Under the pieces are notes generated by a model. The model had not been told where the DNA came from. It ran no database searches and saw only the letters and a list, made by a program, of their open reading frames with translations. Positions 18,117 through 34,478 of a stretch of 39,187 nucleotides of DNA are shown one piece after another. Where the stretch lies: assembly GCA_945897885.1 (NCBI GenBank), contig CAMDGU010000028.1, positions 1 through 39,187 on the forward strand, written 5' to 3'. Position 1 is the stretch's first letter; each line of letters starts with the position of its first letter. This stretch comes from Chitinophaga pinensis. GTDB lineage: Bacteria > Bacteroidota > Bacteroidia > NS11-12g > UBA9320. The position numbers were made by a program, and so were the translations under genes.

Positions 18117-18566
18117 TTAATCTATATTTTGATATTTAAGAAATGTAAAACCATTTATCACACTATTCGACATTTCATCTAAGGTGGTTTCACTAAGCAT
18201 TTTTATCAATTCCTTGTTTATGGCCTTAAACTTATGATGAATGGGACAAGGCTTTGTGGCCGAGCATTCTTTTAACCCCAAAACACAAGCATTATTTTTA
18301 ATTGGTCCCTCTAATGAAATTACAATATCGAGCAGTCTGACATTGCTTAGAGTTTCCGTTTCTAAATGAAAGCCACCTTTAGGTCCCTGGGTGGATTTTA
18401 TAATTCGGTCCTTAACCAAGGTTTGCAAAATTTTAGCCGTAAAGGCTTCCGGTGAATCTATTTCTTTGGCAATGGTTTTTAATCCCACCCTCTTGTTACC
18501 TATTGACTGCTGGGCTATATACACCGCGGCCTTAATTCCGTACTCACTAGCCTTTGTAAAAATCAT
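18117..18566 (-). CDS. Rrf2-family transcriptional regulator (NsrR/IscR-like)
   Basis: The 149-residue protein has the Rrf2 winged helix (MIFTKASEYGIKAAVYIAQQ, then VKDRIIKSTQGPKGGFHLE). It also carries a Fe-S type cysteine triad at Cys94, Cys101 and Cys107 (C-x6-C-x5-C), close to the spacing of IscR and NsrR. It therefore probably senses NO or Fe-S status by its cluster. It follows norB by 67 bp on the same strand. NO-sensing by NsrR-type Rrf2 proteins is established for other bacteria. For this protein it is inferred from context. Confidence 0.85.
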   Translation of the reverse strand: MIFTKASEYGIKAAVYIAQQSIGNKRVGLKTIAKEIDSPEAFTAKILQTLVKDRIIKSTQGPKGGFHLETETLSNVRLLDIVISLEGPIKNNACVLGLKECSATKPCPIHHKFKAINKELIKMLSETTLDEMSNSVINGFTFLKYQNID

Positions 18567-18633: not shown

Positions 18634-19974
18634 TTACTTTAAATGAATGATAAACCTGTTTTTCCAGTAGGTTTTTATCAAAACGATAGCCAAAATGGTA
18701 AATGAAATTAGGAGGCCTAGACCTGCCACAAAAAATGTAGTAAAATATGGGGTTAAACTAACCATCATTTTAGAATAACTGGATTGATTTTCACTCATTT
18801 GCCAAATACTCTTTTTAATGCCGGCCATAATTAAGGATAACCAAAAAATCAACAAACTGAATTGTAAAAACCAGAAAGATAGGGTAGAAAGGTTGGTTAC
18901 TATTTTACTGGTTTCTCTTTTAAAATCGAAGAACTCAAAGCAGGCGGCAAAAATAATCATACTGTTGATGCCAATTGTGGTACCCATAGCATGAGATACC
19001 GTAATATGTGTGCCATGAGTGTATAAATTTATGGCTGGAATTGACATTAAAATAGCTTGTCCCATGTTAATGAAAACCCAAATATCAGCGGCTATTATAA
19101 ATCGGTATGGAAAATAATGGTAGTGTTTTTGAACATCACTAACGGTTTGTTTCCATGTGTAAAGTATTCGCACAAAAAATATCCATTCAGTCATGCTTAC
19201 TATATACCCAACATACCGAATATATTGCTCTGTAGGTAGTGTATAAATATGATGTCCCCAGTTAAACATTAAATTAAATAACCCTAAAAAAAACATACCA
19301 AACGCCAGTTTGCTGCGGCCAACGTGCTTGTTGTTTTCAAATTTATCCATCAAAAAGAAAGCGGTTCCATAAAGAATCTGATTCCATGAACCAACTAACG
19401 AACCGTTGACTTTCCATTGTATGGTCATATCAGTTACAAAATGTTCGCGGAAATATGAAAATATCCAAAGGTAGTTTTCGATAAAGGTGAAGAGGAAGAA
19501 AATAATTCCAGTTAGCCACATCCAAATATAGACTGGCCAATCCTTTATCTTTTTTGAAATTTTTACAAAATTCACCAAAAAAATAATCCAAGCAATGGTA
19601 ATTGGAAGTGCCCATATTGGATTAAACTCCCAATACTCTCTTCCTCCAAAGCTTTTAGTAAAATAGGAATTAAAAATACCTGCCAGTGCTATTATCCAAA
19701 GTACCCATTGTGTTAGGTCGGCAAAGTTGCTTAATTCTTTATCTGTATAAAATTGCAAGCAGCAATACACACATCCTGTGGCACCAAGTATAATCCAAAA
19801 TACTGCAGATGAAACATGCAATGGCCTTAGGGTTGTAAAACCTAACGTATCCTTTAAAAAATCGGGAACCAAATAACTAATGGTTGATAATACGCCAAAG
19901 ATTAAACCCAATAAAAGCATAACCAATGCAGTTAATAAAAAAAGTTTGCCGATGGATAAGTTTGTCCTTTTCAT
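18634..19974 (-). CDS. norB: NorB-like heme-copper oxidase subunit with an altered active site
   Basis: A 446-residue protein with about 12 hydrophobic segments and the cNOR large-subunit layout. Compared with P. aeruginosa NorB (from memory): His60 is His53; FeB ligands His258-His259 are His241-His242; Glu280 is Glu263; heme b3 ligand His347 is His328. FeB ligand His207 is Asn190 (WKVNGSLVGSWN), Glu211 is Val194, Glu215 is Asn198, and low-spin heme ligand His349 is Met330 (TVSHAMG). FeB would keep only two His, and heme b may be His/Met. It overlaps norC by 4 bp. NO reduction cannot be assumed; another NO chemistry or sensing is possible. Confidence 0.8.
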   Translation of the reverse strand: MKRTNLSIGKLFLLTALVMLLLGLIFGVLSTISYLVPDFLKDTLGFTTLRPLHVSSAVFWIILGATGCVYCCLQFYTDKELSNFADLTQWVLWIIALAGIFNSYFTKSFGGREYWEFNPIWALPITIAWIIFLVNFVKISKKIKDWPVYIWMWLTGIIFFLFTFIENYLWIFSYFREHFVTDMTIQWKVNGSLVGSWNQILYGTAFFLMDKFENNKHVGRSKLAFGMFFLGLFNLMFNWGHHIYTLPTEQYIRYVGYIVSMTEWIFFVRILYTWKQTVSDVQKHYHYFPYRFIIAADIWVFINMGQAILMSIPAINLYTHGTHITVSHAMGTTIGINSMIIFAACFEFFDFKRETSKIVTNLSTLSFWFLQFSLLIFWLSLIMAGIKKSIWQMSENQSSYSKMMVSLTPYFTTFFVAGLGLLISFTILAIVLIKTYWKNRFIIHLK

Positions 19975-20378
19975 TTCTGATTAATCATTCCTGTTTTTGA
20001 AATAGTATACTTGCGTGGATCTGCTAATCCGCTGGCATCTACTGATTTTAGAAACTCAATAAGGCATTTATAGTCGTCATTCGGCATGTTATAACATGGC
20101 ATTTGTTTTACCCCGTATTTCAGTATTTGCTTTATCATCCTTTCTCCCTTTTTAGGATTGGATACTACGTTGGTTAAGTCGGGACCCAAATATCCTCCCA
20201 ATCCATACAATTGATGGCAACTCTGGCAATTGTATTTTTGCCAGACAATGCGCCCAGAAACAGCTTTTTCGGAATCAATAGTTGACATTTTGGCTACCGT
20301 TAAAGGAGTTAAATAAATGGAAAGAGTATAAATCAGGAATAAAAAGCAAAGTGAAAAAAACAGATGAATCGGTTTCAT
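19971..20378 (-). CDS. norC: NorC-like membrane-anchored cytochrome c
   Basis: A 135-residue protein with one N-terminal transmembrane helix (about 5-27) and a single c-heme site CQSCH (Cys51, Cys54, His55) in the NorC-type context GRIVWQKYNC...GGYLGPDLTNV. A later MP (MPCYNMPNDDY) supplies the Met ligand. NorC passes electrons from a soluble donor to the NorB hemes. It starts 18 bp after the tyrosine phenol-lyase gene, with no promoter motif seen between, and overlaps norB by 4 bp (ATGA-type). Unlike its partner it shows no missing key residue. Confidence 0.9.
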   Translation of the reverse strand: MKPIHLFFSLCFLFLIYTLSIYLTPLTVAKMSTIDSEKAVSGRIVWQKYNCQSCHQLYGLGGYLGPDLTNVVSNPKKGERMIKQILKYGVKQMPCYNMPNDDYKCLIEFLKSVDASGLADPRKYTISKTGMINQK

Positions 20379-20396: not shown

Positions 20397-21782
20397 TTAC
20401 ATCTTTTGAAATTTAGCCTGAAAAAAACGTAAGTATTTTGGTTCGTAAACCATTTTTAATCCTTTTATGGATTTTCGTTTGTCGTACACATTTGCGGCCG
20501 ATTCGGCAATTACATCCATATGAGCCTGAGTATAAACCCGCCGAGGAATGGTAAATCTAACGAGTTCAAGTTGAGGGTAATAATTTTCACCGTTGGCTTT
20601 TCTTCCTGCCGATACAATGCCTCGTTCCATTGTTCGAACACCAGAATCAATATACATTTCGGCAGCCAAAGTTTGTGCCGGAAACTGGTCTTGAGTAAGG
20701 TGAGGTAAAAATGCTTTGGCATCAACAAATATGCCGTGTCCGCCAATGGGTTTCACTATGGGAACACCATATTCCATCATTCTATGTCCCAAATATTCTA
20801 CTTGCCCAACTCTGGCACGCTGGTGATTATCATCCAAGCTCTCGGCTATTCCTACAGCAATGGCTTCCATGTCGCGACCTGCCAAACCTCCGTAGGTGTG
20901 TAACCCTTCATACACCACCACTAAATTTCTAGCTTCTTCAAAAACATCCCACTCGTTGGTAGCCATAAATCCGCCAATATTAACCAAAGCATCTTTTTTA
21001 GCACTCATTGTGGCTCCGTCAGTAAGTGAGCAAATTTCAAAAACTATTTCTTTAATGGTTTTCTTATCATACCCTTCTTCGCGTTGTTGAATGAAGTAAG
21101 CATTTTCAGCCACGCGGGTCATGTCGTGTATTATTCTGATTTTGTGTTGGCTGGTGTAGGCACGCAATTCTTTCAAATTGGCCATGCTTACAGGCTGACC
21201 TCCGGCTAAGTTTACATTGGTAGCCAAACTTACATAAGGAATTTTTGAAGCCCCATGTTCTTTTACCAGTTTATATAACTTAGCTAAGTCTACATTGCCT
21301 TTAAACGGATGATCATTAAGCGGTTCATGAGCTTCGTCAATAATAATATCAGCAAAAATGCCTCCCGCCAATTCCTGATGTAAACGGGTAGTTGTAAAGT
21401 ACATATTGCCCGGAATGATGTCGCCTTTTTTGATTAAGATTTTTGATAAAATATTTTCGGCAGCCCTTCCCTGGTGGGTAGGTACAATGTATTTATAACC
21501 GTAATATTTTTGAATGGCAGCTTCCAGTTTGTAATAACTTTTACTTCCTGCATAAGCCTCGTCACCGGTCATAAAAGCACCCCATTGGCGGTCGCTCATG
21601 GAGTTGGTGCCACTGTCGGTCAGCAGATCGATATATACATCTTCCGATTTCAGTAAAAATGTATTGTATCCGGCTTTTTTAATTGCTTTTATCCGTTGCT
21701 GTCTGGTTGTCATTTTCAATAATTCAACCATTTTCATTTTGTAAGGCTCAGCCCACGAATGTTTGTTTATTGTATGTTTCAT
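20397..21782 (-). CDS. tpl: Tyrosine phenol-lyase (beta-elimination PLP enzyme)
   Basis: The 461-residue protein belongs to the tyrosine phenol-lyase/tryptophanase family: LTDSGTNSMSDRQWG, IVPTHQGRAAEN, NMYFTTTR, and a PLP-binding SAKKD (Lys263). Residues reported to separate the two activities point to tyrosine phenol-lyase. TMERG gives Arg387 (Arg381 in C. freundii), where tryptophanases have Ile/Val, and LRFF gives Phe453 (Phe448), where tryptophanases have His. It would convert tyrosine to phenol, pyruvate and ammonia. It overlaps nadB by 4 bp and precedes norC by 18 bp. Confidence 0.82.
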   Translation of the reverse strand: MKHTINKHSWAEPYKMKMVELLKMTTRQQRIKAIKKAGYNTFLLKSEDVYIDLLTDSGTNSMSDRQWGAFMTGDEAYAGSKSYYKLEAAIQKYYGYKYIVPTHQGRAAENILSKILIKKGDIIPGNMYFTTTRLHQELAGGIFADIIIDEAHEPLNDHPFKGNVDLAKLYKLVKEHGASKIPYVSLATNVNLAGGQPVSMANLKELRAYTSQHKIRIIHDMTRVAENAYFIQQREEGYDKKTIKEIVFEICSLTDGATMSAKKDALVNIGGFMATNEWDVFEEARNLVVVYEGLHTYGGLAGRDMEAIAVGIAESLDDNHQRARVGQVEYLGHRMMEYGVPIVKPIGGHGIFVDAKAFLPHLTQDQFPAQTLAAEMYIDSGVRTMERGIVSAGRKANGENYYPQLELVRFTIPRRVYTQAHMDVIAESAANVYDKRKSIKGLKMVYEPKYLRFFQAKFQKM

Positions 21783-23323
21783 AGTGAATGATATAATTGT
21801 TTGTTATGTTTTGTTAAAGTTTCTTTTTTGGTAATGTATTGAAGCGACTGGCTTACAATAAGTTTTGCCACGGCCAGTAAATTTTTAAGTTCCCATAAAT
21901 CAGTATGAGGCGCATTGCCCTTAAATTCTGAAAATATTATGTTTTCAATTTTAATAAGTCTTTGCCGGGCTTCTTGCAAATTGGTTTGGATTTTTACAAT
22001 ACCTGCTTTTTGTATCATCAAGGTTTGTATTTCATTTTTAATTTCGTTTATTCGTTTTGAATCTACTGTTTGTTCCCGAACGGATTCGATTTCAAAATTT
22101 GTTGGTTGTTCAAAAGTATCAATGGTTTGTAATACATGCAAGCCGGCTTCATTTGCAAAAACCACCGCTTCAAGCAAGGAGTTGGAAGCCAAACGGTTTG
22201 AACCATGTAACCCGCTGCAAGAGCATTCGCCACAGGCATATAAATTTGGTATAGAGGTTTGTGCTTTTTTATTAACCGCAATACCCCCGCATTGGTAATG
22301 AGCTGCCGGAGCCACCGGTATCCAATCGTTGCTTATATCTATTCCTACCTTAAGGCAGTAGCTATAAATATTAGGAAAATGGGTTTTGAAATTGGTAAGG
22401 TCAAGATGTCGGCAATCCATAAATACATGCTCTTCTCCCGATTTTTTCAGTTCGGTATAAATGGCTTCTGAAATAATATCACGTGTAGCCAGTTCGCCTC
22501 GTGTGTCATAATCAAATAAAAATCGCTGCCCTTTTTTATTTACCAAAGTAGCTCCAAATCCTCTTACGGCTTCCGAAATTAAAAAAGAAGGTGACTGGCC
22601 TTTTTGGTAAAATGCTGTGGGATGAAACTGGATAAACTGCATATTTTCTATAGCCACATTGGCTCTATAAGCCATAGCAACGCCATCGCCGGTTGAAACC
22701 GTTGGGTTGGTTGTGGTTTTATAAACCTGACCTGAACCACCGGTTGCCAGTATGGTTACTCGCGAGGTAAATATGTCAATGGTATGGTCTTTTTGATTTA
22801 AAACCGTGGCTCCATAACAAACGGAATGGTTAGTATCGGTTATTAAATCCAAAGCAAAATGATGTTGAAAAATTTTAACATTTGGAAACTGACGGCTGTA
22901 AAGAAGCAGTTTTTTTTCAATTTCTAAACCTGTGGTATCCTGATGGTGCAGTATGCGAGCTTGTGAATGCCCACCTTCCAATCCGGCAGAAAATTTCCCA
23001 TTCTCTTTTTTGTCAAATTCAACACCCCACTCAATCAATTCTTTCAGGCGTTCGGGGGCTTTTTTTACCACCATTTCTACCACACTCTTATTGCAAAGTC
23101 CACCACCTGCCTTTAGGGTGTCGTCAATATGTTGCTGAAACGAATCGGTAAGTTTATTCAATACCACCGCTATACCCCCTTGGGCATAGCGTGTGTTGCT
23201 TTCGGCTTTATCAGCTTTGGCAAGTATGCAAATAGATAAATCGGGTCGTTCTTTAGCTATGTGAAGCGCAAATGAAAGTCCGGCAATTCCGGAACCTATT
23301 ATCAGTATATCGCTTTTATGCAT
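21779..23323 (-). CDS. nadB: L-aspartate oxidase NadB
   Basis: The 514-residue flavoprotein starts with the FAD dinucleotide motif ILIIGSGIAGLSFALHIA (about 5-22) and shows the fumarate-reductase/NadB active-site segments NTRYAQGGIAVV, GGHSQARILHHQDTTG, ATGGSGQVY and GLHGSNRLASNSLLEAVVF. NadB oxidises L-aspartate to iminoaspartate, the substrate of NadA, at the start of de novo NAD synthesis. It begins 3 bp after nadA ends and overlaps tpl by 4 bp, so the three are probably translated from one mRNA. Confidence 0.95.
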   Translation of the reverse strand: MHKSDILIIGSGIAGLSFALHIAKERPDLSICILAKADKAESNTRYAQGGIAVVLNKLTDSFQQHIDDTLKAGGGLCNKSVVEMVVKKAPERLKELIEWGVEFDKKENGKFSAGLEGGHSQARILHHQDTTGLEIEKKLLLYSRQFPNVKIFQHHFALDLITDTNHSVCYGATVLNQKDHTIDIFTSRVTILATGGSGQVYKTTTNPTVSTGDGVAMAYRANVAIENMQFIQFHPTAFYQKGQSPSFLISEAVRGFGATLVNKKGQRFLFDYDTRGELATRDIISEAIYTELKKSGEEHVFMDCRHLDLTNFKTHFPNIYSYCLKVGIDISNDWIPVAPAAHYQCGGIAVNKKAQTSIPNLYACGECSCSGLHGSNRLASNSLLEAVVFANEAGLHVLQTIDTFEQPTNFEIESVREQTVDSKRINEIKNEIQTLMIQKAGIVKIQTNLQEARQRLIKIENIIFSEFKGNAPHTDLWELKNLLAVAKLIVSQSLQYITKKETLTKHNKQLYHSL

Positions 23324-23326
23324 GGT

Positions 23327-24265
23327 TTAGGCAGAAATTTCAAGCATTCGTCTTAAAGGTATCAGTGCTTTTTTCCGTGTAATTTCAGGTACGTTTACCT
23401 CGGGGGTTTCGTCTCTTAGGCAACGGTAAAGTTTTTCTAATGTATTCATTTTCATATACGGACACTCACTGCAAGCACAGGTATTGTTCTCTACCGCAGG
23501 TGCCGGTATCAGTAATTTTCCGGGCACTTCCTTCTTCATTTGATAAAGGATTCCGGCCTCGGTGGCTATAATAAATTCAGGGCAATCGCTATTTTTTATG
23601 TAATTAATCATGCCGCTGGTAGAGCCAATGTAATTTGCCATTTCCAAAATCGGAGTTTCTGATTCGGGGTGTGCTACGATATCAGCATTAGGAAATTGTT
23701 TTGATAAAGCTTTTAGTTTGTCAACCGAAAAAGCCTCGTGAACCATGCAAGCTCCTTGCCACAAAACCAGCTCTCTGCCGGTTTCATTTATCAGGTATTT
23801 TCCCAAATTTTTATCAGGACCAAATACGATTGGTTCCTCTTTTGGCAGAGATTCAATCAACTTTTTGGCATTGGCGGATGTGCAAATAATATCGCTTAGT
23901 GCTTTTACCTCAGCCGAACAGTTTACATAGGTAATTACTGTATGGTTGGGGTGCAAATGAATGAAATTTTCAAAAGCATCAGATGGACATGAATCGGCTA
24001 ATGAACAACCTGCATTCAAATCGGGTAAGAGGACTTTTTTGGCAGGGTTTAAAATTTTTGCTGTTTCGGCCATGAAATAAACACCGGCAAATACAATAAT
24101 ATCCGCATTGGTTTTAGCCGCTTCAATGGATAATCCCAAACTATCCCCTACAAAATCGGCTATATCCTGAATAGCGGGTTCCTGATAGTAATGGGCCAGT
24201 ATAATAGCATTCTTTTCTTTTTTCAGTTCAAGAATTTTTTGAGTTATAGTTAGTTCTCTCATCAA
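23327..24265 (-). CDS. nadA: Quinolinate synthase NadA ([4Fe-4S])
   Basis: The 312-residue protein matches Nad[41 protein letters not shown], and cluster cysteines Cys87 (NAGCSLAD), Cys173 ([11 protein letters not shown]) and Cys268 (CACSECPYM). NadA condenses iminoaspartate with DHAP to quinolinate, using an exposed Fe-S cluster that is sensitive to oxygen and, in general, NO. It follows the 611-aa unknown gene by 12 bp and precedes nadB by 3 bp. Co-location with a NOR-like complex and an Rrf2 regulator is unusual. Confidence 0.95.
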
Positions 24266-24277
24266 ATGCTAATTTTA

Positions 24278-26113
24278 TTAATTATTTGCTTTAAACATCG
24301 GCTCTTTGGCAAGCAAATCTTCAATGGAATAGGATTGGAGTAAATTTCTAAATTCATTAAGTTGTTTGGTCATCTGATCGCAGGCATCCGTTCCTTTTTT
24401 GTGAATCTCATTGCATTTTGAATTATAATAGTCAATTCCTTTCAACAGATTGTCTTTAAAGGTGATGAAATACGATTGTTCCTTATTGGAAATAGAAACT
24501 ATCTTTTTTGAGAGTTCCTTTTTATAATAATCAATATAAAGTTGAAGCTCATTGACAAATACATTGGGGCGGTGCAATTTATTTAAAACATTTACCCGGC
24601 CATAAATATGATCTACCATTTGGCGTAGCGAGAAAACCCCTGAAAAATAAGCTAAATTGGGCCCGGGGCAAATGGTAACTGCACTTAATTTGTGTGATAA
24701 TTCTGCATCATTTTTCAATAGAGCTGAGGCCCCTAATCCTTCACACAAGCAGTCTTTTTCAATTACCTTTTCAATTTCTTTGGCCAATTCTACGTCGTCG
24801 GTTATATCGGCTTTCAGTTGCTTTATTTTTAGGTTTTGATATTCGCGGGAGGCTGTGCAAATGGGTTTATCTGTAAATTCTTTGTTCATGGAAAGAAACT
24901 TCTTATAGCACGGGCTTCCGGGTCTGTTTTTCAATATCCTGGCCATGCGCTGTTGGTCGGAGGTGGTATTTTTAAGGTTATTAAACGGAACACCTAAAGG
25001 CGAGGCATTACTCAGGTAATAGTCGTCTTTTTTAGCTTCTACTAATTTTGTTAAGGTTTCATCATCCACGTTGGTGGCTTCGGGAACCAGTAAAAATGGA
25101 CTTCCCCATCCGGTGGCATCCAAGTCATAATAATCCATCATAAACTCGTTCTCACCTGCAGTTCCTATACCGCCTTGTGCCGTAATTTTTAATATGGGTT
25201 TTGTTTTAAATGGCAGTTTTCCCAATAGATTAATGGCGTTAGAGCAATCGGTATACAGTTCTTCAAACAGTTCGGTTCGCTTATTTTTAAAGTCTTCTAA
25301 AATCGGACCAAGCGGGGTTCCGTTTGAAATAAAGGCATGACCACCGCAGTTGATTCCTGATTCAATTCTGAACTCGGAAACCCACAGCCCTTTTTTGGCT
25401 AAGTATTTTCCTTGTATCAATGCCGAACGATAATCGCTAACCTTTAAAATTATTTTTTTATTAATTACCCCTTCTTCATTGGGATAAAAATCTTTGAAGG
25501 CTTCGCAATAGGCGTATAATCGGGGGTTTAAACCGGCAGAAAAAATAATGGACGATTTTACATCGCTATTAGCATAGCCCCGCAATGCAGCCATGGCATC
25601 CGAATATTCTGTAGGCAATTCATTCCCATCTGTATCATAATTGGCTTTGTCCAATTTGGTCATAATGTTCACATCTATAGAACCGGCCACTATTAATTCT
25701 TTTAATTTATGCTGCAGAATGTGTTTTTCTTCACCAGTGCTTAGCAGCATAGTGTTATAAAGCTGTCTGGTTTCGGAGTCATCGGGCAACATTTCAAAAT
25801 ATTGTTTAATAGTAGCGCCTGTTTCAAAGTCTTCTTTCTTGATATCCTCAATTTGGCGGTTTACAACAGTATTCATTAAATTTATATAGGCTGTAATCCG
25901 TTTTGCCCTGTTATCGTCTTCTGTTACCGGAATTTCAATATAACTCAGATTTTCATTTTTGCATATTACCTTTCTCATTTGTTCAATAAGTTGGTCTTCT
26001 ATAATGGAAATAACGGAGGAAATGCCAAACTTGGCAACTTTAACAGGCGTGTCAATTGTAAAAGCCAACCCCATAACCGGAATGTGGAAGGTATGCGTAG
26101 AACTATTTCTCAT
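24278..26113 (-). CDS. Large conserved-looking protein of unknown function, possible FMN barrel
   Basis: From the ATG at 26113 the protein has 611 residues. A start 18 codons upstream is possible, but the extra residues look unlike protein. The N-terminus FHIPVMGLAFTIDTPVKVAKFGISSVISI and a GGIGTAGE stretch followed by YYDLDATGWGSPFLLVPEAT suggest a TIM-barrel FMN enzyme related to nitronate monooxygenase/PfaD-type proteins. This is a pattern impression, not a search result. Many Cys are present (PICTAS, CLCEGLG, TICPGP). It is probably the first gene of the nadA-nadB-tpl-norCB run, 12 bp from nadA. Confidence 0.6.
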   Translation of the reverse strand: MRNSSTHTFHIPVMGLAFTIDTPVKVAKFGISSVISIIEDQLIEQMRKVICKNENLSYIEIPVTEDDNRAKRITAYINLMNTVVNRQIEDIKKEDFETGATIKQYFEMLPDDSETRQLYNTMLLSTGEEKHILQHKLKELIVAGSIDVNIMTKLDKANYDTDGNELPTEYSDAMAALRGYANSDVKSSIIFSAGLNPRLYAYCEAFKDFYPNEEGVINKKIILKVSDYRSALIQGKYLAKKGLWVSEFRIESGINCGGHAFISNGTPLGPILEDFKNKRTELFEELYTDCSNAINLLGKLPFKTKPILKITAQGGIGTAGENEFMMDYYDLDATGWGSPFLLVPEATNVDDETLTKLVEAKKDDYYLSNASPLGVPFNNLKNTTSDQQRMARILKNRPGSPCYKKFLSMNKEFTDKPICTASREYQNLKIKQLKADITDDVELAKEIEKVIEKDCLCEGLGASALLKNDAELSHKLSAVTICPGPNLAYFSGVFSLRQMVDHIYGRVNVLNKLHRPNVFVNELQLYIDYYKKELSKKIVSISNKEQSYFITFKDNLLKGIDYYNSKCNEIHKKGTDACDQMTKQLNEFRNLLQSYSIEDLLAKEPMFKANN

Positions 26114-26153
26114 GTATTTATTTTTAAATAACCTTTTTGTTATAAATGCCCTG

Positions 26154-26161
26154 CAAATATA
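26154..26161 (-). promoter_or_regulatory. Candidate -7 box for the nad/nor run
   Basis: On the minus strand this reads TATATTTG, a match to TAnnTTTG, 40 bp upstream of the ATG at 26113. A -33 element is not evident. Confidence 0.4.
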
Positions 26162-26273
26162 CCACAATAATCATATTCGGATATTTTTGTCTTTTTTTAT
26201 TAAAACATGATTTTCGTCATATAATAATAGATTACATGTGTATTTCTTTGCATCAATATTTAAACTAAATACC

Positions 26274-28684: not shown

Positions 28685-29452
28685 CTACAAATCTTTCTTT
28701 CTGAATTTTCGTAAAGAAATTAAAAACGGAACGGCAACCCACAGAAGCAAAATAGTAAAGGCAGCAATAATACCAACCTGATTACCAAAAAAGTTTTTGA
28801 AAATAGCCCCGGTATAACCCATCATGGCTGATACATCCAAATGAAGGAGGATTAATATTCGGGCTAAATCAATGGGATTAAGAGCCGTAATGCCTACCAT
28901 TATTTTTTCGATAGGGTAATCGGCAAATTGGAAAATTAAAAACAAAACGACCCCGTCAAACAACAAGGCAAAAAACATCCATAGCAAAATGGCAATACCT
29001 ATACCTTTGGCCTTATCGCGGGTGGCAATGGAACTTAAAAAAGCAATAGCTACAAAAACTACCGTAATAAAAATACCAACCAAAAGCATCATAATTCCTA
29101 CATCTGATGGAGCATAAAATAAAATGGGAATACCTGCTCCAATAAAAAAAGCCAGCAATAAGGAAATGGATAATCCGAAAAAAAGGCTGAACCAAATTTT
29201 ACTCCTGCGAATGGGTTGGCTTAACAAGAGTTCAATAAACTCGGAGCTATTGTAAATATATATGGTAGAAAAGATAACAGATACTAAAGGTACTGTTAGC
29301 AAAATTACATTTAGTAAAGTGAGCAATCCCTTGGTACTGTTATCTTCCAAACTAAATACACTCCAAGAAAGTATGGCCAGTATTAAAGTATAAACCAATA
29401 CAATTTTATTTTTCAGAATATCTAAAACAATAAACTTCCCTATCCTATTCAT
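28685..29452 (-). CDS. nosY: NosY, ABC permease of the nos system
   Basis: A 255-residue protein with six hydrophobic segments and the IRRSKIWFSLFFG region of ABC-2 permeases. With NosF and NosD it forms the complex needed to deliver sulfur or copper for the CuZ site of NosZ. It overlaps nosF by 8 bp and is the last gene of the nos operon in the window. Confidence 0.88.
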   Translation of the reverse strand: MNRIGKFIVLDILKNKIVLVYTLILAILSWSVFSLEDNSTKGLLTLLNVILLTVPLVSVIFSTIYIYNSSEFIELLLSQPIRRSKIWFSLFFGLSISLLLAFFIGAGIPILFYAPSDVGIMMLLVGIFITVVFVAIAFLSSIATRDKAKGIGIAILLWMFFALLFDGVVLFLIFQFADYPIEKIMVGITALNPIDLARILILLHLDVSAMMGYTGAIFKNFFGNQVGIIAAFTILLLWVAVPFLISLRKFRKKDL

Positions 29453-30158
29453 GCGTATTGTTTTTTAGTATGTGAGCAATGGCTTTCGAAATTTTTTCCT
29501 CACCGGTGGATGATTTTAGCTCGTCTACGGTTTTGTGAAACTGCACGTTTCCATCTTGCATAAAAATAATTTGGGTAACCAAGTCATCCAGTTCACTGAG
29601 TAAATGCGAAGTAATGAGTATTAATTTACCTTTCTTTTTTTCGGCAATAATCTTTTCTTTTAATATTTCGGAGGCTAAAGGGTCAAGTCCTGCCGTAGGC
29701 TCATCTAAAATAAGCACATCGGGATTAAACAAAAATGCCAGGGTTGCACTTACTTTTTGGGTAGTACCTCCTGAAAGGGTTCGCATTTTTTTGTTAAGTA
29801 TATCCTTTAGTTTAAACTGATGAAACAGGTCTTCATCGATCGGTATATCTGATTTTCGGAGCTCCTTAATCATATCCAATATTTGTCCTATGGACATATT
29901 ATCAGGATAGCGGCCGATTTGCGGCATATAGCCTATATGATTTCTATACTCAAAATTATTGGTAATAAACGTGTCTTTAAATTTTATGGTTCCCTCGGTA
30001 GGAATAACCATGCCCAAAATACTTTTGATAAGCGTTGTTTTCCCACAACCATTAGGACCAATAAGGGCGATACATTCCCCTTGGTTGCAACTTAGACTAA
30101 CATTATTCAGAACTTTAAGTCGTGCGAAATTTTTTGATAGATTATTTATTTCAATCAT
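29445..30158 (-). CDS. nosF: NosF, ABC ATPase of the nos system
   Basis: A 237-residue ABC ATPase: Walker A GPNGCGKTT (34-42), signature LSGGTTQKV (129-137) and Walker B/D-loop VLILDEPTAGLD (149-160). NosF powers the NosFY transporter that, with NosD, matures the copper centre of N2O reductase. It overlaps nosD by 4 bp at its start and nosY by 8 bp at its end. Confidence 0.92.
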   Translation of the reverse strand: MIEINNLSKNFARLKVLNNVSLSCNQGECIALIGPNGCGKTTLIKSILGMVIPTEGTIKFKDTFITNNFEYRNHIGYMPQIGRYPDNMSIGQILDMIKELRKSDIPIDEDLFHQFKLKDILNKKMRTLSGGTTQKVSATLAFLFNPDVLILDEPTAGLDPLASEILKEKIIAEKKKGKLILITSHLLSELDDLVTQIIFMQDGNVQFHKTVDELKSSTGEEKISKAIAHILKNNTHE

Positions 30159-31390
30159 AAATCCACAGAGTGCATCAGGGGGGTGTTATCAATAAAATTA
30201 TCGGGGGTTAAACTGGGTATCATTTTTTCGGATTTATCAAGCAAGGTTACCATAAAACTGCGAAATAAAAGCATTGCAGGTGGATTATTTTCAACAATTA
30301 CCGAAAACAAACTGAGCGGATGGTAAGGCACATCACCAATGTGATTGCGGTCTAAGTCATATCCATCATACTTATCCCAATAGTTGCCGTTAAAGGTGTT
30401 TAAAACCAACGAACCGTTTGTGCTTATGTCAAATGTGTTGGCTATAAAATTATTGGTTACCACTTCATTTTCCATACAACTGGCTTGTATCTTCATTCCC
30501 CATCCGTTGGATTCAAACACATTTTTTTCAACCTTTATGCGGCTGGTTCCTTCCATATGAATACCGGATGTGTTTCGAATAAACGTGTTTCCAAAAATAT
30601 AGCTGTCGGATATTTCCTTTAAGAATAAGCCATAGGAGGCATCTCCCCAATTTTCTTCAAAGGTGTTATTAATCATGGTTACATTTTTTGTAAACATAAC
30701 CGCCACTCCTGCACCATTATTTTTGAAAACATTTGTGATATAAGCATCGTTGTTTGAAAACATGAAATGCAGTCCATACCTTATATTTTTTGTTGAGATA
30801 TTTCGCCAAATAACCGAGTTGGTTACAAATTCAAAATAGATACCATCGCGATGGCCCGAAATTCTGTTTCCAATAATTTGAAGGCTATCGCTTTTCCAGC
30901 AATGAATACCGTTTCCAATTTGTTGCTCTTCTACACCATAAGCTTTTATTCGGTTGTTTTTTACAACAGTGTTTTTGCAATATTGCAGATAAATGCCAAA
31001 AAAATTGTCGTCCAAAATATTATCACAAACCGTTACATGATTGGCTTCATAAACTTTTATAGCTCCAGGGTCGTCTAAGGTAGCGTATCCTGAGTTTTCA
31101 ACCCTAAACCCTGTGATTACCGTATTGTTGGATTTTATAGAAAGTATCTCATATTTCTTTTGACCATCTAAAATTGGCCAGTTTTTTCCAATTAACGTTA
31201 CTTCCTTATCTACTATAATATTCCCTTCTTTGTAAATACCTTGGTGTATAAGGATTGTGTCGCCATTGATGGCTTGTGCCAATGCGTCTTTAATTTTTTT
31301 GAACGATTTATTTTGCCCAACCTCCAAAACTTTGGAATGAGCAAATTGAGAAAGAATGAGAAAAAAAAATGTTAAAAATTTAACCTTCAC
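30155..31390 (-). CDS. nosD: NosD, periplasmic beta-helix maturation factor
   Basis: The 411-residue protein has a Sec signal peptide (about 1-19), a start typical of NosD (QNKSFKKIKDALAQAINGDTILIHQGIYKEGNIIV) and PbH1-type beta-helix repeats (FGIYLQYCKNTVVKNN, GIHMEGTSRIKVEKN). NosD assists assembly of the CuZ sulfide cluster. It abuts the nosL-fusion gene (stop at 31391) and overlaps nosF by 4 bp. Confidence 0.92.
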   Translation of the reverse strand: MKVKFLTFFFLILSQFAHSKVLEVGQNKSFKKIKDALAQAINGDTILIHQGIYKEGNIIVDKEVTLIGKNWPILDGQKKYEILSIKSNNTVITGFRVENSGYATLDDPGAIKVYEANHVTVCDNILDDNFFGIYLQYCKNTVVKNNRIKAYGVEEQQIGNGIHCWKSDSLQIIGNRISGHRDGIYFEFVTNSVIWRNISTKNIRYGLHFMFSNNDAYITNVFKNNGAGVAVMFTKNVTMINNTFEENWGDASYGLFLKEISDSYIFGNTFIRNTSGIHMEGTSRIKVEKNVFESNGWGMKIQASCMENEVVTNNFIANTFDISTNGSLVLNTFNGNYWDKYDGYDLDRNHIGDVPYHPLSLFSVIVENNPPAMLLFRSFMVTLLDKSEKMIPSLTPDNFIDNTPLMHSVDL

Positions 31391-32495: not shown

Positions 32496-34478
32496 TTATT
32501 TGGCCGGAGCTGTTGCCGGAGTTACACCTGTTCCATAAGAAATTGGAACATTACTTCCTGCAGGTGAAACTCTAACATAACCTGTCATTTCCTGATGCAA
32601 TGCACTACAAAAATCTGTGCAATACATTGGAGAAATTCCAACTCTTGTAGGAATCCATTTCAAGGTTTGAGTTTCACCAGGCATCACTAATAATTCAGCA
32701 TTATCTGCTCCTTTAATAGCAAAGCCATGTGGTACATCCCAATCTTGCTCAAGGTTTGTTACATGGAAATATACCTCGTCACCCATTTTTATTCCTTCAA
32801 TATTATCAGGAGTTAAATGCGACCGAATGGCTGTCATATACACATGAACTTTATTTCCTTCTCTTACCACCTTAGTTTCTTTTTCACCTTTGGCCACGTA
32901 TGGGTGACTGTTATCTTCAATTTTAAACATTTTTAAAGAGTTCTTTTTGATAACATCCGCTACAATAGCTTGAGCATAGTGAGGCTCTCCAATGGTTGGG
33001 AAGTCTAAAATTAATTTCATTTTATCACCGCCTATGTCAAACAATTGAGCACTTTGCGATAACTCAGGACCGGTTGGTAAATAACGATCTTTCGTGATTT
33101 TGTTATAAGCTATTAAGTATTTACCGTATGGTTTTTTGGTGTCGCCACCTACTACACACAAGTGACCAATAGAATAAAATGTAGGAGCTCTGTCTAATAC
33201 TTTAAGGTCTTTAAGATTCCATTTAACAACTTCGGATGAAACAAACATTGAAGTATAAGCATTTCCATTGTCATCAAATTCGGTGTGTAATGGTCCTAAA
33301 CCTGGCTTTTTAACCTCACCGTATAATGCTGATTCGTATTTAATAACAGGAATACCATCAAATTCACCATCAAAACTTTTAGCTGCAATAGCTTTAATCA
33401 TTTTATCAAAGCTAAATACAGGAATAACAGAAGCTAATTTGCCACTTGCCACAATGTATTCACCTGTTGGAGAAACATCACAACCATGTGGCGATTTTGG
33501 ACAAGGAATAAAGTAGCAAATATCTTTTAAGGTTTTTGAATCAAGTACAATTACTTCAGTTTTAATTTCGGAAGTAGCAGTATGTGTTTTTTCGCTGTAT
33601 GTATTGTGAGCATACCTAACGGTTTGTTTTCTGCCTTTATCTGCTTTTAGGTATTCCTCAGCTTTTTTCCAGTTTACTGCCATTACAAAGTCTTTGTCTT
33701 TTTGTGAAGCATTTACTTCTAATAAAGTATTGGCTTGTTCTGTATTGTAGCAAGAGAAAAAGAACCAGCCATGAGATACACCTTTACCGGCACGGCTCAA
33801 GTCAAAGTTAACACCTGGGCACTGAATCTGAAAAGCAATGTCCATTTTGCCATCTTCTTTGCCTACGCTGATAAAGCTGATGGTTCCTTTAAAATTTTCT
33901 TTATAACTATTAATAGGAACATCGCCATTGGCATCATCCGGAGGAACGCTAAAACGAGTTCCTGCTACTACATACTCTGTATTTTCAGTGATAAATGGAG
34001 AAGAGTGATTTCCACCACTGTTTGGTAACTCAATAATTTCAGCGGTTCTAAAGGTTTTTAGATCGATACGCGCTACACGAGGTGTATTATTTGCATTACC
34101 AAAAACCCAGCGGCCATCAGCTTCACCATTAGTTTTAGATAATTGAGTATGATGTAAATCGTCCCATGGAACAAAACCGTGAGAGGTGTTTAACATTGGT
34201 TTTGTTTCTTCACTATATCCCCAACCTTTTTCCGGATCTACCGAAAATACCGGAATAACACGTAATAAACGGCCGGATGGTATTCCGTAGCAACTCATTT
34301 GGCCACTGAAACCACCGCTCACGAAGTTATAAATTTCATCGTACTTGCCTGGTGCTACATAAACTTTTTGTGCAGCATCGCCACTTACAGCATTGCTTGA
34401 ATCTTTAGGCTTACAGGATTGTAAGGCAGTTGTTAAGGCTAAGGCAGCCAATGCAACTAGGATTGATTTATTTTTCAT
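32496..34478 (-). CDS. nosZ: Nitrous oxide reductase NosZ, clade II type, lipoprotein
   Basis: The 660-residue protein ends in a cupredoxin domain with the CuA site CTDFCSALHQEM. The N-terminal beta-propeller has the CuZ histidine segments DDLHHTQL, VSHGWFFF, SPHGCDV, GLGPLHTEF, SIGHLCVV and GEPHYAQ. It reduces N2O to N2. The export signal is Sec-type with lipobox LQSC (Cys22), without a twin Arg, as in clade II NosZ. Lipid anchoring follows from the lipobox. It starts 26 bp after the cytochrome gene. Confidence 0.95.
   Translation of the reverse strand: MKNKSILVALAALALTTALQSCKPKDSSNAVSGDAAQKVYVAPGKYDEIYNFVSGGFSGQMSCYGIPSGRLLRVIPVFSVDPEKGWGYSEETKPMLNTSHGFVPWDDLHHTQLSKTNGEADGRWVFGNANNTPRVARIDLKTFRTAEIIELPNSGGNHSSPFITENTEYVVAGTRFSVPPDDANGDVPINSYKENFKGTISFISVGKEDGKMDIAFQIQCPGVNFDLSRAGKGVSHGWFFFSCYNTEQANTLLEVNASQKDKDFVMAVNWKKAEEYLKADKGRKQTVRYAHNTYSEKTHTATSEIKTEVIVLDSKTLKDICYFIPCPKSPHGCDVSPTGEYIVASGKLASVIPVFSFDKMIKAIAAKSFDGEFDGIPVIKYESALYGEVKKPGLGPLHTEFDDNGNAYTSMFVSSEVVKWNLKDLKVLDRAPTFYSIGHLCVVGGDTKKPYGKYLIAYNKITKDRYLPTGPELSQSAQLFDIGGDKMKLILDFPTIGEPHYAQAIVADVIKKNSLKMFKIEDNSHPYVAKGEKETKVVREGNKVHVYMTAIRSHLTPDNIEGIKMGDEVYFHVTNLEQDWDVPHGFAIKGADNAELLVMPGETQTLKWIPTRVGISPMYCTDFCSALHQEMTGYVRVSPAGSNVPISYGTGVTPATAPAK

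Follow-up and report, generated by a model that had tools for sequence, protein, structure and literature searches.

A conserved, nosZ-linked NorC-like/NorB-like pair of Bacteroidota with altered metal and haem ligand positions is probably a working enzyme of nitrogen-oxide metabolism

Six histidines are described as the signature of the haem-copper oxidases (HCOs), and the same account of Nod gives one FeB histidine as replaced by Asn and a nearby Glu by Gln (PMC3413370). For cNOR, Glu135 is described as a Ca ligand, Glu138 and Arg57 are placed in a periplasmic cavity, and an Arg134–Asp198 salt bridge and a path through Ser277 and Glu280 are presented (PMC3431322); NorQ and NorD are reported to be required for FeB insertion (PMC9976466). 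Further families, eNOR, bNOR, sNOR, gNOR and nNOR, are described as related to the B-family oxidases (PMC11388526). The analyses presented here concern a NorC-like/NorB-like pair which, judged by its sequence, is cNOR-like in plan yet lacks five of the seven tested features of cNOR and the tested features of CcoN and Nod. Since the altered NorB-like form is kept in many relatives and travels with nosZ, we suggest that it probably functions in nitrogen-oxide metabolism as a hitherto undescribed enzyme.

Within the window (the whole stretch of 39,187 nucleotides analysed, all features given below lying on its minus strand), a NorC-like c-type cytochrome of 135 aa (19971..20378; Pfam Cytochrome_CBB3, with CxxCH and a Met) precedes, with an overlap of 4 bases, a NorB-like haem-copper-fold subunit of 446 aa (18634..19974), in which COX1 (119 bits) is the sole Pfam domain. 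Both ORFs are intact, in agreement with an earlier sequence-only reading that described the subunit as full length with no frameshift and whose residue letters (H53, N190, V194, N198, H241-H242, E263, H328, M330) were all correct. That reading also found NorC normal in appearance, and CxxCH with a Met >30 residues downstream is indeed present in 79/79 NorC-like sequences (the window's locus counted twice). At the positions that would correspond to Glu57, Glu70, Gly71 and Tyr73 of NorC, the glycine is kept in 78/78 sequences and the tyrosine in 74/78, and Gln and Leu stand for Glu57 and Glu70, respectively, each in 78/78. When the NorB-like protein was compared with solved structures by phmmer, only three matches passed E 0.01, namely cNOR chains 4xyd_A and 3o0r_B and, after them, a cbb3 subunit. 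An AlphaFold2 model built from a 78-row alignment (mean pLDDT 84.9, pTM 0.89; confidence low at residues 181–190, mean 64, and 241–250, mean 58) gave, with VIA, Z values of 40.0 to 4xyd_A, 38.6 to 3o0r and 40.2 to cbb3 chains, and the predicted fold thus appears about equally near cNOR and CcoN.

Relatives were drawn from one scan of a species-genome collection, from which the best 80 of 209 confirmed stretches were taken; a Bacteroidota taxon stands in the record titles of 77 of these best 80 loci. One locus (L053, 58% identity) carries a Thermoanaerobaculia title and may reflect a binning error or a transfer. Flavobacterium antarcticum DSM 19726 and F. orientale are cultured carriers. Among the plasmid-record matches listed (40 of 223), those covering most of the query were all ≤ ~25% identical. 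An alignment of 83 sequences (the 80 loci, the window, its own locus L003 and its own CcoN) contained 57 entries of an Asn190 type, 19 with Tyr190, two truncated, four variable at residue 190 or 194, and the CcoN; one of the two signatures is therefore found in 76/80 untruncated NorB-like entries (57 N-type, window and L003 counted, and 19 Y-type), a likeness due partly to selection, as the scan that supplied these 80 entries looked for close relatives. Residue counts below refer to 78 sequences, namely the window and 77 relatives, after removal of L045 and L079 (both truncated), L053 and L003; the most distant of them is 48% identical to the window. A norC-like gene lies directly upstream of the norB-like gene in 78/78 scorable loci (L003, from the window's own genome, among them; L041, L053 and L079 offered no target ORF that could be scored), overlapping or ≤30 bases apart in 77/78.

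Invariant in 78/78 NorB-like sequences are R50, H53, R112, E113, E116, D182, K188, G191, G195, N198, N234, N238, H241, H242, S260, E263, H328 and M330. These include the residues that had been listed as kept: His53 (codon 19816..19818), at a low-spin haem b ligand position; His241–His242 (19249..19254), at the two remaining FeB ligand positions; Glu263 (19186..19188), at the Glu280 position; and His328, at the haem b3 ligand position. H241, H242, E263 and H328 stand unambiguously opposite His258, His259, Glu280 and His347 of NorB (P. aeruginosa numbering, used throughout for His207, Glu211, Glu215 and His349). Met330 (codons His328 to Met330, 18985..18993) occupies the position of the low-spin haem b ligand His349, as had been proposed, and this assignment is firm because the surrounding THGT...H motif aligns gap-free. 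Since methionine is able to ligate a b haem, for example in cytochrome b562, a low-spin haem held by His53 and Met330 would be the simplest reading, and His241, His242 and Glu263 could together form a two-His-one-carboxylate iron site.

Helix VI (K188–N198, 19381..19413) has lost the FeB His207 and Glu211 positions. No His occurs at residues 183–205 in any of the 78 sequences, and Cys204 is found in 4/78; residue 190 is Asn in 58, Tyr in 19 and Ser in one of them, and Gly191 and Gly195 are without variation. Pairwise alignments, which place a single-residue gap before this point of the helix, set Asn190 opposite His207 and Val194 opposite Glu211, which is what the sequence-only reading had claimed; however, MAFFT alignment with cNOR (12 rows), CcoN (4) and qNOR/Nod (15) sets Gly191 opposite the FeB/CuB His in all of them, pairs Val194 with Val210 and leaves Glu211 facing a gap. 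Spacing points both ways: Asn190–His241 is 51, as in cNOR, and Gly191–His241 is 50, as in CcoN; Asp182–Gly191 equals Asp198–His207 of cNOR. In a helical-moment test the conserved face included G191 (−26 degrees) and G195 (+14) and excluded N190 (−126), which backs Gly191 at the His207 position weakly, as the controls failed (moments of 0.04–0.06 versus 0.22, with the true FeB/CuB His at −49 in cNOR, 177 in CcoN and −151 in qNOR/Nod). We therefore favour Gly191 over Asn190 as the residue that replaces His207, and under either pairing helix VI is, as aligned, without an FeB ligand. The claimed loss of helix VI ligands thus stands, although the pairing attached to it does not hold firm; Glu215, too, is absent, as had been stated, and whether Asn198, which is invariant, faces it depends on the alignment.

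The NorB residues of the cNOR proton path are retained: in the phmmer-based alignment R50, R112, E113, E116, D182 and S260 match Arg57, Arg134, Glu135, Glu138, Asp198 and Ser277, although E113 is no firm cNOR mark because its column holds Lys in 6/12 cNOR rows. With Gln and Leu at the NorC Glu57 and Glu70 positions, the entrance of the cNOR ‘Channel 1’ appears altered and the cavity common to cbb3 appears kept. That both residues of the HH pair and the proton path are retained argues for turnover at a metal-bearing b3 site.

Comparison with cNOR (3o0r of P. aeruginosa and 4xyd of Roseobacter denitrificans) shows a likeness in the NorC partner, the fold, the positions of His53, His241, His242, Glu263 and His328 and those of Glu138, Arg57 and Asp198, and cNOR is the nearest family by profile score (87–107 bits). 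The NorB-like protein differs in that it is only ~20% identical, has two of the three FeB His positions, lacks Glu211 and Glu215 and, with Met for His349, has a broken bis-His low-spin haem b site (His60 and His349). It also falls outside the cNOR plus qNOR/Nod clade (support 98–99, with long branches and a quick method), and its own genome has no NorD-like match. Hence, of seven cNOR features examined, only the NorC-type partner and the Glu280 position were found, and simple membership of cNOR was rejected on the FeB His, Glu211/Glu215, the bis-His haem b, the clade and the NorD-like gene. A maximum-likelihood tree of 109 proteins places the NorB-like sequences, 78 in number, on one side of a branch with an SH-aLRT of 99 and groups cNOR with qNOR/Nod (98), with CcoN apart. 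If CcoN is taken as the outgroup, the family would be sister to cNOR plus qNOR/Nod and not a recent cNOR copy; the depth of the split is provisional, as branches are long and the tree method quick. A decaying cNOR copy, which the loss of canonical ligands might suggest, is extremely improbable given one clade outside cNOR with substitutions invariant in 78 sequences down to 48% identity; this strongly supports the earlier view of a maintained variant, and the eight family matches of a phylum sample had no internal stops, which also speaks against decay.

The cbb3 subunit CcoN (3mk7) resembles the NorB-like protein in fold (Z 40.1) and in the equal spacing of a helix VI Q-W and V. In contrast, the NorB-like protein lacks the CuB His of helix VI, the second His of H-x-H and the helix VII Tyr that has a role in CcoN; it scored 48.3 bits against NCBIfam ccoN (cut-off 583.15), a model of which canonical cNOR also falls short (36.2 bits), and CcoN membership was rejected because the six metal and haem His are incomplete and the cut-off is not reached. 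Nod, too, lacks one FeB His, and Nod-like genes adjoin the pair in five loci. However, in the 13 Nod-like proteins from holder genomes the Nod changes affect the alignment columns that hold the window's His242 and Glu263, both of which are kept in 78/78; the NorB-like protein keeps HH and Glu and alters helix VI instead, and it has no long N-terminal extension (446 versus ~770–826 aa). The analogy with Nod that had been drawn from an Asn at an FeB-His position therefore fails. The eNOR, bNOR, sNOR, gNOR and nNOR families are likewise non-canonical NORs or NOR candidates; the NorB-like protein is nearest to cNOR and CcoN, and we provisionally set it apart from these families by the way they are described.

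In the window the pair forms part of a run of genes (gaps of −4 to 67 bases) comprising, in order, a 629-aa protein with no Pfam or NCBIfam match at E 0.001 (24278..26167), nadA for quinolinate synthase (23327..24265; NF006878, 448 bits), nadB for L-aspartate oxidase (21779..23323; TIGR00551, 526 bits), a tyrosine phenol-lyase/tryptophanase-family gene (20397..21782; TIGR02618, 731 bits, over cut-off) 18 bases before the norC-like gene, the pair itself and, 67 bases downstream of it, an Rrf2-family regulator (18117..18566; Pfam Rrf2, 87 bits). Members of the Rrf2 group and of the group of the 629-aa protein lie within six genes of the pair in 32 and 26 loci, respectively. Elsewhere the genes of this run recur beside the pair, as do genes for proteins that, by sequence reading, are proline dehydrogenase-like, anaerobic ribonucleotide reductase-like, RIC-type and NnrS-like, with RIC/hemerythrin-type proteins near the pair in 16 loci and NnrS-like proteins in eight. 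Together the neighbours suggest that these genes serve anaerobic growth.

The window also carries nosZ, for a Sec-dependent (clade II) nitrous oxide reductase (32496..34478; TIGR04246, 935 bits, over cut-off), nosD (30155..31390; TIGR04247, 417 bits, over cut-off) and an ABC ATPase (29445..30158; ABC ATPase families, none over cut-off among the 25 matches listed) whose position suggests nosF. Clade II nosZ was found in 43/50 holder genomes from the 80 loci, 30 of the loci having been left out by eye before the nosZ result was obtained. Among 395 genomes sampled from the phylum, nosZ was present in 8/8 pair holders (two of them partial family matches) versus 120/387 others (Fisher p 1e-4), in the window's family (38 genomes) in 4/4 holders versus 3/34 others (p 5e-4), and in its genus in 4/4 holders versus 0/3 others; these statistics ignore kinship, and the counts are not fully independent, as the holder, phylum and family samples share at least G383=G432, G450=G395 and G447=G433, matched by their identical nosZ positions. 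Both residue-190 types occur within the genus, Asn190 in G000 (the window's own genome) and G450 and Tyr190 in G446 and G447 (~49% identity to the window); nosZ accompanies each of them, which suggests that the pair and nosZ were gained or kept together on repeated occasions. Further, nosZ lies after the pair in two loci (L075 and L082), separated from it by a single cytochrome c gene. Four holders (G403, G407, G408 and G435) have cNOR and nirK and no nosZ match; the pair therefore does not serve NosZ alone.

The only HCOs seen in the window's own genome (98.5% complete) are CoxA, CcoN and the NorB-like protein. Among 51 genomes (the 50 holders and this one, many of them MAGs, with HCO matches followed down to ~115 bits), canonical cNOR occurs in nine, Nod-like proteins in 13 and an HCO of 475–500 aa (open frame), with Asn four residues after the first CuB-type His, in six, together 24 genomes, HCOs of unassigned type (~555–594 or 725–735 aa) being left outside the NOR count. 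In the other 27, of which 24 carry nosZ, none of these three types was seen, an absence that is soft, as are the other HCO absences, because many of the genomes are MAGs, matches stop near 115 bits and some extra HCOs are of unassigned type. NirK is present in 17/51 genomes (15 over cut-off), including all nine with cNOR (one partial match) and four of the 27 (G400, G412, G431 and G441, with a further HCO of unassigned type in G400 and G441). The NirS query matched in none of the 51 genomes, and its control likewise matched nowhere. NorD-like proteins were found in 9/51 genomes, each beside canonical cNOR. All 13 qNOR-like proteins of these genomes (~770–826 aa; L103, L104, L106, L114–L117 and L122–L127) bear the Nod signature, HN for HH and Q for E, and in L060, L064, L072, L074 and L083 a Nod-like gene lies divergent beside the pair.

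Considering the observed gene pair, its predicted fold, the ligand losses, the kept residues, their conservation and the genomic links, we tentatively propose, as the reading with the most support (probability about 0.45), a cytochrome c-fed membrane haem b/b3 enzyme that reduces a nitrogen oxide, most likely NO, at a remodelled non-haem site; haem and metal occupancy, ligand roles, substrate and direction are what we infer. In this proposal the NorC-like/NorB-like complex would act in anaerobic or low-oxygen growth and feed or complement NosZ, low-spin haem b (with His53 and Met330 as ligands) would relay electrons from haem c to haem b3 (His328), the retained Glu/Asp/Arg path would bring in protons from the periplasmic side, and instead of three His and Glu211 the non-haem metal would have His241 and His242, and perhaps the Glu263 carboxylate, as its ligands. 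The links to nosZ, to nirK and cNOR and to Nod-like genes speak for an N-oxide substrate and favour the possible ‘distinct NO chemistry’ of the sequence-only reading; invariance of HH, Glu263, the haem b3 His and the proton path speaks for turnover at the b3 site. Against NO reduction, the aligned protein is without His207 and Glu211 of helix VI, which are credited with FeB binding or NO catalysis, and without Glu215, the NorC Glu57 and Glu70 positions appear altered in 78/78, the window's own genome is without a NorD-like match, another NOR-type HCO is present in 24/51 genomes, and nosZ and the pair could merely share an anaerobic lifestyle. The lost FeB ligands, the altered low-spin haem ligand and the tight nosZ co-occurrence would also suit a non-catalytic conduit in which the haem b/NorC pair hands membrane electrons on to periplasmic reductases such as NosZ, with the b3 pocket a mere vestige, and the gene order in L075 and L082 could be read in the same way. 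We consider this unlikely, since invariant H241, H242, E263 and H328 are unexpected for a vestigial site, four cNOR and nirK holders lack a nosZ match, and the pair is absent from 120 of the 128 nosZ carriers of the phylum sample.

A different N-oxide chemistry, with another substrate or direction such as NO oxidation or a Nod-coupled step, would draw on a pocket re-lined by Asn198, Asn234, Asn238, Lys188 and two Gly, residues that never vary and that put polar groups at positions occupied in cNOR by Glu, Ser/Thr, Gly and mostly Trp. It might account for the Nod-like genes beside the pair in five loci and in 13/51 genomes, but 38/51 genomes, the window's own included, have no Nod-like match above ~115 bits, and the pocket-facing of the re-lining residues is drawn only from helix periodicity; we regard such a chemistry as improbable. 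More doubtful still is an NO sensor or scavenger without turnover: the Rrf2, RIC/hemerythrin-type and NnrS-like neighbours noted above would be in keeping with it, yet nothing specific to the sensor suggested earlier was found, COX1 is the only Pfam domain, the proton-path residues do not vary, and the pair is packed among metabolic genes. 

Returning to the proposed N-oxide reductase, we suggest, a little more tentatively still, that the family could represent a third C-type-branch lineage beside cNOR and qNOR, with an N-oxide reaction at haem b3, a two-His (perhaps one-Glu) site and a His/Met low-spin haem b, in which the ‘histidine sextet’ rule is broken twice.

In searches of an open-access library, which does not include the key NOR survey of Murali et al. 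(2024), we recognised no description of the family, and novelty is provisional to that extent. A conserved, nosZ-linked family that does without two signature His would make the roles of the third FeB ligand and of the bis-His haem directly testable. In addition, nitrogen accounting may be affected, as surveys might take such genes for norB or a cbb3 oxidase, or drop them.

Finally, other unusual loci were seen in the carrier genomes. In L107 and L108 (from the genomes of L018 and L020) a run of cNOR, RIC-type, NorQ-like and NorD-like genes lies directly upstream of the pair, the names other than cNOR and NorD being given by sequence reading. Two holder genomes encode a 555-aa HCO with GHFK at the H-x-H site (L103:12267-13634 and L106:3088-4455), in which Lys perhaps replaces the low-spin haem His. 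A- and B-type oxygen reductases have a Tyr four residues after the first CuB-type His; an HCO of 472–493 aa (L105, L106, L113, L118, L128 and L129) has Asn as the fourth residue after it, lies in some loci beside a cytochrome c gene and an SCO1-like gene (SCO1 by sequence reading), and is possibly a B-family-related NOR.
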